Source: Flavobacteriales bacterium
GTDB taxonomy: Bacteria; Bacteroidota; Bacteroidia; CAIKAF01
Reading direction: 5' to 3'
NCBI GenBank assembly: GCA_022402535.1
Contig: JAKRSD010000017.1
Coordinates: 1-64,000 of the forward strand
DNA: 64,000 nucleotides
Both the position numbers and the translations under genes were made by a program. The notes beneath the pieces were generated by a model. The model was given only the letters and a program-made list of their open reading frames with translations. It did no database searches and was not told the DNA's origin. How positions within the stretch are numbered: position 1 is the stretch's first letter; every line of letters begins with the position of its first letter. This document shows positions 29,182 through 31,379 of this stretch, one piece after another.

Positions 29182-30360
29182 ATGGCTGCTGATAAATTTG
29201 AATTTCATGATTATTACCTGACGGAAGAATTGCTCACCGAAGAGCATCGTCTCATTCGCGAAACCGTTCGTGCATGGGTAAAAAAAGAACTTTCGCCGGT
29301 AATTGAAGATTACGCCCAACGGGCAGATTTCCCCAAACATTTAATTCCCGGTCTGGCTGAAATCGGTGCCTTCGGGCCATACATTCCGGCCGAATACGGC
29401 GGAAGCGGATTAGACCAGATTGCCTACGGAATCATCATGCAGGAATTGGAAAGAGGCGACAGCGGAATCCGTTCCACAGCTTCTGTACAGTCTTCTCTGG
29501 TGATGTATCCGATTTATTCATTCGGCAGCGAAGAACAAAAAAGAAAATACCTGCCCAAACTCGCCAAAGGCGAAATGATGGGTAGTTTCGGTCTTACGGA
29601 ACCTAATCAGGGTTCTGATCCGGGAGGAATGACTACCTGGTTTAAAGATGAAGGTGACCATGTGATATTGAATGGCGCCAAAATGTGGATTTCTAACGCT
29701 CCGTTTTGTGATATTGCCGTAGTATGGGCAAAAAGCGAAGCCGGCGAAATTCATGGCATGGTGGTAGAACGCGGCATGGAAGGATTTTCAACGCCCGAAA
29801 CCCACAGCAAATGGTCGTTAAGAGCATCTGCCACGGGCGAATTGGTTTTTGATAATGTAAAAGTGCCTAAAGAGAACATTTTTCCAAACGTAAAAGGATT
29901 GAAAGGGCCATTAAGCTGTCTGAACAGCGCCCGTTACGGAATTTCCTGGGGTGCCATCGGAGCCGCATTGGACTGCTACGATACCGCGCTGCGTTATTCC
30001 AAAGAGCGTATGCAGTTTGGCCGCCCCATAGCCGGATTCCAGCTTCAGCAGAAAAAACTGGCCGAAATGATTACAGAAATTACCAAAGCCCAACTGCTTA
30101 CCTGGAGATTGGGCGTGCTGAAAAATGAAAACCGTGCCACACCGGCTCAAATTTCTATGGCAAAGCGTAACAACGTAAACATGGCCTTAGAAATAGCCCG
30201 CGAGGCTCGTCAGATTTTAGGCGCCATGGGAATCATCGGAGAGTACAGCATTATGCGCCACATGATGAACTTAGAATCGGTGGTTACCTACGAAGGAACA
30301 CACGATATCCACCTGCTTATTACCGGTATGGATATTACCGGGTTGAATGCATTTAAATAA
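29182..30360 (+). CDS. gcdH: Acyl-CoA dehydrogenase, glutaryl-CoA dehydrogenase-like
   Basis: 392 residues with the three-part acyl-CoA dehydrogenase fold. The FAD/substrate segment FGLTEPNQGSDPGGM, MWISNAPFCDIAVVWAK and the C-terminal YEGTHDIHLLITG with its catalytic glutamate are present. CLNSARYGISWGAIGA and RMQFGRPIAGFQLQQKKLAEM are characteristic of glutaryl-CoA dehydrogenase, which oxidises and decarboxylates glutaryl-CoA in lysine/tryptophan breakdown. The LRASATGEL motif supplies the arginine that binds the distal carboxylate. The gene ends in a strong terminator. Confidence 0.88.
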   Translation: MAADKFEFHDYYLTEELLTEEHRLIRETVRAWVKKELSPVIEDYAQRADFPKHLIPGLAEIGAFGPYIPAEYGGSGLDQIAYGIIMQELERGDSGIRSTASVQSSLVMYPIYSFGSEEQKRKYLPKLAKGEMMGSFGLTEPNQGSDPGGMTTWFKDEGDHVILNGAKMWISNAPFCDIAVVWAKSEAGEIHGMVVERGMEGFSTPETHSKWSLRASATGELVFDNVKVPKENIFPNVKGLKGPLSCLNSARYGISWGAIGAALDCYDTALRYSKERMQFGRPIAGFQLQQKKLAEMITEITKAQLLTWRLGVLKNENRATPAQISMAKRNNVNMALEIAREARQILGAMGIIGEYSIMRHMMNLESVVTYEGTHDIHLLITGMDITGLNAFK

Positions 30361-30384
30361 GTAATCTGAATATTTATTGAGTAA

Positions 30385-30414
30385 GGCTGGTGTTTTCATC
30401 AGCCTTTTTTTGTT
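30385..30414 (+). terminator. Terminator of the glutaryl-CoA dehydrogenase gene (repeat copy A)
   Basis: Stem GGCTGGTG (30385-30392) with CATCAGCC (30397-30404), one G-T wobble, TTTT loop, followed by seven T. It lies 24 bases after the stop. 27 of 30 bases are shared with copy B at 31222-31251 on the other side of the HepT/MntA genes. Confidence 0.82.
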
Positions 30415-30433
30415 ATCACCAATCCGTTTTACT

Positions 30434-30549
30434 TCTGCTAATAGCGGTTCGCGGGTTGGCGAAGTTGCTGTATTCAGTTCACTTTGCTATCAGCTTGCAA
30501 CAAAGCTCAAACTTGCAACTTACCCGGCAATTTTGGCAAACCGCTGAAA
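30434..30549. repeat. Imperfect inverted-repeat element next to hepT (attC-like or intergenic mobile repeat)
   Basis: The arms AGCGGTT (30443-30449) and AACCGCT (30539-30545) pair perfectly, and further in AAGTTGC (30462-30468) pairs with GCAACTT (30515-30521). CGGGT and ACCCG near 30452 and 30522 also match. Between them a small hairpin AGCTT-N6-AAGCT is seen near 30492-30507. The element follows the hepT stop by about 14 bases, as an attC site would follow a cassette gene, but the RYYYAAC/GTTRRRY boxes of attC are not clearly present and the outer bases have the opposite polarity. I see no coding content in it. Confidence 0.5.
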
Positions 30550-30558
30550 AGATGGTTG

Positions 30559-30891
30559 CTAAAGGGATAACTTCAAAACTTCCTTCTTTAAAGGATTTAA
30601 ATGTCGAATAATTATCACCCAAATGATTGAATTATCAATACTGTCATAAGCGTGAACTAATCTATTCCTGATAGAAACAATTTGTTTATCGTATTCAATT
30701 TCAATGGTCGGCTCAACTTTTCTGAACTTACTCAGAGCTTCACCAATAATTGCAAGTTGTCTTTCTACCGCACTTTGCGTTTTTCGATCAGATTCATAAG
30801 CACTAAAATCGGTTATTTCCTTTGTGAATTCCTCTATTAGTGAAATCGCCATCAATATATCAGAAAGATACTTTAAGCCCTTGTCTGTCAT
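30559..30891 (-). CDS. hepT: HepT-family toxin (HEPN ribonuclease)
   Basis: 110 residues. The RX4HXY motif of HEPN nucleases is intact (Arg75, His80, Tyr82 in RNRLVHAY). The helical organisation and the ERQLAIIGEALSKF helix match the DUF86/HepT family, which cleaves cellular RNA when not neutralised. The reading frame overlaps the mntA gene upstream by 32 bases, so the two are translated together. In the known system MntA blocks HepT by adding AMP to its tyrosine near the active site; Tyr82 is the obvious candidate. The gene is visibly AT-rich compared with its neighbours. Confidence 0.88.
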   Translation of the reverse strand: MTDKGLKYLSDILMAISLIEEFTKEITDFSAYESDRKTQSAVERQLAIIGEALSKFRKVEPTIEIEYDKQIVSIRNRLVHAYDSIDNSIIWVIIIRHLNPLKKEVLKLSL

Positions 30892-31195
30892 ACACTAACA
30901 CCTTTGATGAATCTATATTTTTTCTCAGAATTGGATTTCTAATCGATGAAGATGTCAGCAAATCAACCTTGCGTTGGAAGTAGGCTTCGAGCTTATCCCA
31001 TAAATCTAGCAAGTTTTGTCCTCTTTTAATCGGATCTTCGGTATTCAATTCGACTAATAAGTCAATATCGCTAGTGTCTTCCTTAAAGTTGTCAGTCACA
31101 GAAGATCCAAATGCATATACCGATTTCACATCATGGCTTTTACACAATGAAATAAACTCGTCTGGTCTAACTTGTATTGTGTCCTTCAAATTCAT
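30860..31195 (-). CDS. mntA: MntA-family nucleotidyltransferase antitoxin
   Basis: 111 residues. The minimal nucleotidyltransferase signature is AFGSSVTDNFKEDTSDIDLLVE: Gly30-Ser31, eleven residues, then Asp43-Ile-Asp45; the usual spacing is ten. It is the partner of HepT, probably using ATP to AMPylate it. A -7-like TAAATTTG lies just upstream at 31209-31216 on the minus strand. The C-terminal DRQGLKVSF codons overlap the hepT start. Together with HepT this is a type VII toxin-antitoxin pair, thought to act in stability or phage defence. Confidence 0.85.
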   Translation of the reverse strand: MNLKDTIQVRPDEFISLCKSHDVKSVYAFGSSVTDNFKEDTSDIDLLVELNTEDPIKRGQNLLDLWDKLEAYFQRKVDLLTSSSIRNPILRKNIDSSKVLVYDRQGLKVSF

Positions 31196-31208
31196 ATTGC
31201 TAAGATAA

Positions 31209-31216
31209 CAAATTTA
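31209..31216 (-). promoter_or_regulatory. -7 element of the mntA-hepT operon (TAAATTTG)
   Basis: TAAATTTG (minus strand) fits TAnnTTTG and lies 13 bases before the mntA ATG. The approximate -33 position falls in terminator copy B (TGTG near 31234-31237), so the promoter and the repeat overlap. Confidence 0.45.
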
Positions 31217-31221
31217 CCTAC

Positions 31222-31251
31222 GGCTGGTGTTTTCACAGGCCTTTTTTTGTT
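31222..31251. repeat. Terminator-like repeat copy B flanking mntA
   Basis: 27 of 30 bases are identical to the terminator at 30385-30414 and in the same orientation. The stem is weaker (one G-A mismatch and one wobble), and seven T follow. No plus-strand gene ends just before it; the mntA gene begins 26 bases to its left on the other strand. It looks like a duplicated copy rather than a working terminator of a present gene. Confidence 0.7.
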
Positions 31252-31328
31252 CAAGGATGACGTTATTACCCAGCATCTTGTCTATTGCCGGTTTTTTTTA
31301 ATTAACCCGTTTTTGCCGGAATTAAAAA

Positions 31329-31355
31329 AAATACGCCCCGATTTGAGGCGTATTT
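31329..31355 (-). terminator. Terminator of porV
   Basis: AAATACGCC (31329-31337) pairs with GGCGTATTT (31347-31355), 9 bp, loop of 9. The A-tract at 31324-31331 gives a U-run on the minus strand, 25 bases after the porV stop. Confidence 0.8.
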
Positions 31356-31379
31356 ATTAATATGTAAGAAATTACTTGT

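Follow-up and report, generated by a model that had tools for sequence, protein, structure and literature searches.

Toxin–antitoxin modules on bacterial chromosomes are gained and lost from strain to strain with no mobile element in sight. How they enter is an old question, and a locus in the genome of a Flavobacteriales bacterium (assembly GCA_022402535.1) raises it in compact form. In the window, the stretch of 64,000 nucleotides analysed here (contig JAKRSD010000017.1, positions 1 to 64,000), a gene pair resembling HepT/MntA stands between an acyl-CoA dehydrogenase gene and porV, with a copy of the same hairpin sequence on either side. Does this repeat record the entry of the module and, if so, how did so small a unit get in? 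The answer we reach, and consider probable, is that the module entered horizontally and was inserted at the hairpin terminator of the gcdH-like gene, with duplication of its target and without a dedicated recombinase.

A HepT/MntA-like pair between two related hairpins

The junction contains the following features.

29182..30360, plus strand: acyl-CoA dehydrogenase gene (gcdH-like; Pfam Acyl-CoA_dh_N/M/1), ended by terminator copy A
30382..30414, plus strand: direct repeat copy A, the intact gcdH terminator hairpin, of the TTGCCT-hairpin family (family match from 30377; fold and pair comparison)
about 30438..30550, minus strand: imperfect inverted-repeat element of 113 bp directly behind hepT, attC-like in outline, with degenerate ends
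30559..30891, minus strand: HepT-like gene for a predicted toxin of 110 aa, with an RNRLVH motif at residue 75 (Pfam PF01934, E 1.8e-19)
30860..31195, minus strand: MntA-like minimal nucleotidyltransferase gene, predicted antitoxin, 111 aa (Pfam PF18765/PF01909)
31209..31216, minus strand: putative Bacteroidota-type -7 box of mntA, TAAATTTG, recognized by sequence
31219..31251, plus strand: direct repeat copy B, hairpin with mismatched stem (family match from 31214, where module homology ends)
31330..31362, minus strand: porV terminator, unrelated in sequence (fold z -5.3)

An earlier reading of this DNA, made from the sequence alone, had proposed an intact toxin–antitoxin pair between two terminator copies, and the pair is indeed intact: neither reading frame is interrupted, the two share 32 nt, and they have matches in the HepT-like and nucleotidyltransferase families of Pfam. 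The HepT-like protein scores 70.1 bits against a Pfam cut-off of 23.5, and its RNRLVH is the RX4-6H motif of HEPN toxins; the MntA-like protein, above cut-off for the Pfam nucleotidyltransferase families, carries GS-X11-DID, where the type VII motif is GSX10DXD. As the NCBIfam HepT_toxin and MntA_antitoxin equivalogs give 39.4 and 41.7 bits, below their cut-off of 60, we name the pair only HepT/MntA-like, a predicted toxin with its predicted antitoxin. Searches of the PDB gave nothing decisive. The interval from copy A to copy B contains hepT, mntA and the inverted-repeat element and nothing else, with no transposase or integrase; the element occupies the space between hepT and copy A, in line with its earlier description as lying between the repeats. 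The order queA-gcdH is conserved in the family.

The terminator duplicate had been described as 27 of 30 bases shared in the same orientation by 30385-30414 and 31222-31251. This match is real and widens to 29/33 between copy A, TAAGGCTGGTGTTTTCATCAGCCTTTTTTTGTT (30382-30414), and copy B, TACGGCTGGTGTTTTCACAGGCCTTTTTTTGTT (31219-31251), beyond which the flanks have no likeness. Dinucleotide-shuffled windows gave 0 matches as good, and a search of the 3.4 Mb genome that allowed up to three mismatches to the pair found, besides A and B, a single further site, at C7:115466. Because terminators are alike by function, we scored hairpins against one another in addition to the shuffles, taking 495 terminator-like hairpins from 1.69 Mb, about half of the organism's own 3.41 Mb genome. 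Unlinked pairs reached 29/33 in 3 of 121,974 comparisons, and pairs less than 1.7 kb apart in 11 of 255. Since this degree of identity is so rare among unlinked hairpins, the likeness of A and B is not a matter of chance and reflects either local duplication or membership of one family.

Copy A folds into a perfect stem (-15.2 kcal/mol, z -5.3), whereas the stem of copy B is mismatched (-9.3 kcal/mol, z -2.0), as the claim of a damaged stem had it, with its U-tract kept. No remnant gene was seen before copy B, an Rfam search of 29-33 kb returned no match and no similar DNA was found in a plasmid collection. From copy B to porV (window 31280-31362) there is an AT-rich inverted repeat (31292-31303/31320-31331), then the strong porV terminator.

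The -7 box consensus of Bacteroidota is TAnnTTTG, and the box noted earlier beside copy B is present at 31216-31209 on the minus strand. The family element of copy B begins within this box, supplying the first three of its bases. At the same position G014, a genome from another genus of the family, has TGAATTTG, and no clear -33 box for mntA was seen. The junction with copy B may have completed the -7 box of a predicted mntA promoter.

Relatives of the inverted-repeat element, 73-96% identical, occur beside toxin-like genes in two other genomes (L096 1494-1630; L097 1486-1622), adjoining an mntA/hepT-like pair in G099 and lying behind a toxin-like pair in G005. Judging by these sequences, attC-like inverted repeats may mark cassette-like toxin modules in Bacteroidota. 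The organism's own genome also encodes a tyrosine recombinase, about 370 aa long, that has an additional region at its N terminus (G000:C32:17506-18315; L150 9219-10319), and similar proteins occur in G014, G099 and G131.

Horizontal arrival as a bare operon

MntA is 94% identical in G014, where gcdH is 83% and PorV 50% identical, a disparity that indicates recent horizontal transfer; by sequence comparison, the module is a horizontal acquisition. G014 retains mntA but no more than the 5' part of hepT, and has them at a different place. Similarity to other mntA/hepT loci (L109, L111, L113 and L114) stops at 31214-31215, the edge of copy B, and at the other border similarity to L111 reaches 30560, the end of hepT, which together define the mobile block as the bare operon. 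No flanking repeat was detectable at the closest copies of the module (G014, G131 and G167).

A search of 15 other genomes of the family found gcdH and porV adjacent in none, and the best PorV relative in a scan of the named genome collection, at 59%, is too distant to show the window's own empty site. The earlier proposal that the module entered with a duplication is partly supported: lateral entry and a local duplication in excess of chance bear it out, and the window's own duplication may have arisen in this way.

Spanning repeats and single-copy empty sites at some sister loci

Comparison with other HEPN/MNT loci places the window's repeat in a wider pattern. Seven of the 25 complete HEPN/MNT loci with an MntA homologue elsewhere in Bacteroidia have a direct repeat of 26-170 bp that spans the module; L113 is spanned by a repeat as well, and was left out of this count on account of a contig end. 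Random segments had a spanning repeat far less often (42/3000, or 1.4%, in the organism's own genome; 34/3000, or 1.1%, in family relatives; 12/3000, or 0.4%, in other Bacteroidota; Fisher p 5e-9 for 7/25 against the pooled segments), and none was found at 43 core-gene loci. A sample of MazF loci gave a weak signal, with only 2 of 25 spanned. The repeats differ from place to place, comprising gene 3' ends, one gene 5' end and a tRNA end with its terminator.

A duplicated target predicts a single copy in relatives free of the module, and this prediction, made for the window in the earlier reading, was borne out at two sister loci, each in a different genus from the window. The first concerns an aminopeptidase gene in the genus to which G023 belongs: its 3' end and downstream DNA occur once in each of the 12 inspected relatives that lack the module and twice in the carriers, G023 and G246. 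The two copies in G023 are 97% identical, and the 673 bp that they enclose are purely the operon. The second concerns a different host gene in the genus of G227, whose 3' end is doubled around mntA in G227 and single in 4/4 inspected module-free relatives. Repeat ends vary between copies at the sister loci, which speaks against a site-specific recombinase.

The same gene ends have received other inserts. The 3' end doubled in G227 occurs three times in G436, where the inserts are a vapBC-like (PIN/DUF2281) pair and a parDE pair; L118 likewise combines two modules with three repeats. The G436 array (L288 2470-4923) has its vapBC-like and parDE pairs separated and bordered by the three copies of the host-gene end. 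In G479, two copies of the aminopeptidase 3' end surround a different insert (L289 1945-2594), a 161-aa reading frame with no Pfam match.

Repeat-flanked inserts elsewhere in the genome

We also scanned 1.69 Mb of the organism's own genome, without reference to gene content, for direct repeats 300-2500 bp apart and sorted the resulting list by eye. The scan returned repetitive genes, repeat clusters and scaffold gaps, and among the inserts between direct repeats, sorted in this way, toxin modules are prominent. A mazEF-like pair behind groEL is flanked by a duplicated groEL 3' end with its terminator (58 bp at 98%), and the coding ends of the two copies differ mainly at third codon positions. 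This module lies directly behind groEL on contig C7 (L162 6546-7432). Other direct repeats enclose a Fic gene, a higBA-like pair, a parE-like toxin with its antitoxin (parDE-like) and an S1-domain gene, and one duplicated gene end has no reading frame between its copies. Apparent duplicated terminators at L166 (6.1 kb) and L175 were discarded because they flank scaffold gaps.

A hairpin family private to this genome

Both copies of the repeat belong to a dispersed hairpin family with a TTGCCT foot followed by GGTyGGTG-TTTT-CACCrACC. At a threshold of 16 bits the family has 27 hits in the 1.69 Mb taken from the organism's own genome, against 2 in shuffled sequence; no hit of at least 18 bits was found in 1.30 Mb from other genomes, and the pattern was found neither in 15 family relatives nor in viral contigs. 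Copy A is 28/33 identical to a hairpin beside the Fic gene, nearly as close as it is to copy B. An element GGC..GCC and a GTT tail, however, are common to A and B and occur in no other member. Hairpin pairs border the HepT/MntA, HigBA, Fic, S1 and DUF4143 genes. In the case of Fic and S1 the repeated sequence is not confined to the hairpin but continues past it for 90-180 bp into locus-specific DNA. No motif of a REP-associated (RAYT) transposase was found in the 1.69 of 3.41 Mb scanned. It had been held against a duplication that the two sequences might prove common in many unrelated intergenic regions: this is so to the extent that the family of A and B gave 27 hits in half of the genome, but only one other member comes within three mismatches of the pair.

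Hairpins of the form TTGCCTnnGGTyGGTGTTTTCACCrACC stand in clusters, in inverted pairs and around toxin genes (L162 1213-2020, L222 6475-6552, L203 1775/2569, L241 1642-3052 and L189 3618). We considered whether a hairpin is a general property of duplicated targets and rejected the idea, as it holds for several sites in this genome and for L131 but not for L112, L113, L118 or L126.

Weighing the explanations

The strongest rival to target duplication is that A and B are two self-spread members of this REP-like family, with the module merely between them. The number of hits and their confinement to one genome, the shared foot, the near equality of the Fic-side hairpin and the existence of clusters and inverted pairs all favour it. 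Yet the GGC..GCC element and GTT tail belong to A and B only, hairpin pairs around single inserts exceed chance for about 13 scattered loci, the Fic and S1 repeats run far beyond the hairpin itself, and the half genome scanned shows no REP-transposase motif. We judge independent spread unlikely, though it deserves more weight than any other alternative. For A and B we favour duplication at a hairpin hot spot, because of the features private to the two copies and the locus-specific extensions at Fic and S1; the window site may itself be such a hot spot. Points against target duplication are that the window's repeat, at 33 bp, is shorter than most of the others, that the closest copies of the module show no flanking repeat and that the MazF sample gave so weak a signal.

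The remaining alternatives fare worse. Tandem terminators are common in bacteria, and the two hairpins could be backup terminators of gcdH, or the end of a lost gene, with the module landing between them without duplication. The fold and U-tract that copy B retains would suit such a history, but on the mntA side nothing lies between module and hairpin, similarity ending at most 5 bp from copy B, and the lost gene has left no visible remnant; this reading is improbable. Slightly less credible still is that the module is an integron-type cassette, with the element behind hepT as its attC and an integrase acting in trans. The related inverted repeats in G099 and G005 speak for a cassette, as does the match of the organism's tyrosine recombinase to the integron-integrase model, which lies below the cut-off. 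No integron integrase above cut-off was found in nine genomes, however, and the model also matches ordinary control genomes; the GTTRRRY/RYYYAAC ends are degenerate and not clear in the window's element, the closest mntA/hepT relatives are without that element, and cassette integration would leave the hairpins unduplicated. Convergence of two terminators by chance can appeal to the G+C stem and T-tract that terminators share by function, but the rarity of such likeness among unlinked pairs leaves about 0.006 expected among the 255 linked ones, and we give it almost no credence.

Origin of the copies and proposed mechanism

The mechanism proposed here builds on the repeat, the horizontal acquisition, the borders of the module at the repeat, the recurrence at other toxin modules and the single-copy empty sites at sister loci, all of which are observed. 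Between copies of the coding repeats there are 39 differences, of which 29 fall at third codon positions, boundary codons having been left out by hand (p 2e-7 against one third; p 0.01 against an expectation of 55%). This excess is more than simple decay of one copy would give and suggests, from the sequences, that the copies come from two diverged alleles. The distal copy in G246 is 89% identical to the allele of another species, against 84% to the strain's own gene. Together, these results fit one-sided homologous recombination with donor DNA: a fragment bearing the end of the neighbouring gene and the module would recombine homologously on one side and be joined illegitimately on the opposite side, leaving the resident's own gene end behind. 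Template switching, which the earlier reading had put forward, remains compatible as a route of capture; how the joining took place, retention by addiction and the origin of the window's own repeat by target duplication are matters that we infer.

In the most likely course of events, the hairpin, being fragile or stalled, would have captured DNA bearing the operon alone, or such DNA would have recombined homologously with the neighbouring gene at one end and been joined illegitimately at the other; repair or the additive join would have left the second copy of the target. Deletion between the repeats would then be frequent, yet loss of an addictive module would poison the cell, so that inserts would persist while the redundant copy B decayed. 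It counts against this account that some repeat-flanked inserts are without a known toxin (the S1-domain gene and the 161-aa frame in G479). The mechanism predicts that addiction, rather than a recombinase, decides which inserts stay.

Extended beyond this locus, our results lead us to a tentative proposal, one we would not yet bet on, that toxin–antitoxin operons of Bacteroidia are minimal mobile units that insert without a recombinase at gene ends or hairpins, duplicate 30-170 bp, stack into arrays and persist since their loss is lethal, with the private hairpins as the preferred landing site in this genome. Gene ends with stacked modules offer sites at which insertion, loss and replacement can be followed.

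Comparison with known systems

REP and BIME elements are short extragenic palindromes with a conserved foot and are also targets of insertion. The family described here resembles them in its short extragenic hairpins, conserved foot, many copies per genome, location at gene ends, clusters and inverted pairs; it differs in its TTGCCT foot, in the lack of a REP-associated transposase motif in half of the genome and in having toxin modules, not insertion sequences, as inserts. Toxin–antitoxin cassettes of integrons likewise present an operon followed by a hairpin-forming element, and arrays of modules separated by repeats (as in G436 and L118), but here the repeats are not attC sites but the ends of host genes, variable in length, and no integrase scored above cut-off. 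The gene pair shares with the type VII HepT/MntA systems (PMC7641770, PMC11586414) its HEPN and MNT domain architecture, its organization as a pair and the RX4-6H motif of the toxin, and differs from them in falling below the NCBIfam equivalog cut-offs and in its GS-X11-DXD in place of GS-X10-DXD.

The closest parallel is with restriction-modification systems, for which chromosomal insertion with long and variable target duplication has been described (PMC3874152 and PMC3031569, citing Nobusato et al. 2000 Gene; Furuta et al. 2010 NAR). Both cases involve an addictive unit in the chromosome, no mobile element and direct repeats of a variable target, and both were recognized by comparing related genomes. 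The repeats there are of the order of 100 bp, against 33 bp in the window and 26-170 bp elsewhere. The present case differs in its cargo (HEPN/MNT, mazEF, higBA, parDE and vapBC modules in Bacteroidia), in the stacking of several modules behind a single gene, each set off from the next by a copy of the repeat, and in a duplicated target that, in this genome, is often a hairpin. No report of target-duplicating insertion of toxin–antitoxin modules was found in the literature searched, which leaves most subscription journals outside it; we regard such insertion as a variant of the restriction-modification mode, with weak evidence for its novelty. Bare operons within repeats, together with single-copy empty sites, nevertheless provide a concrete and testable mode of entry that toxin–antitoxin modules would have in common with restriction-modification systems.
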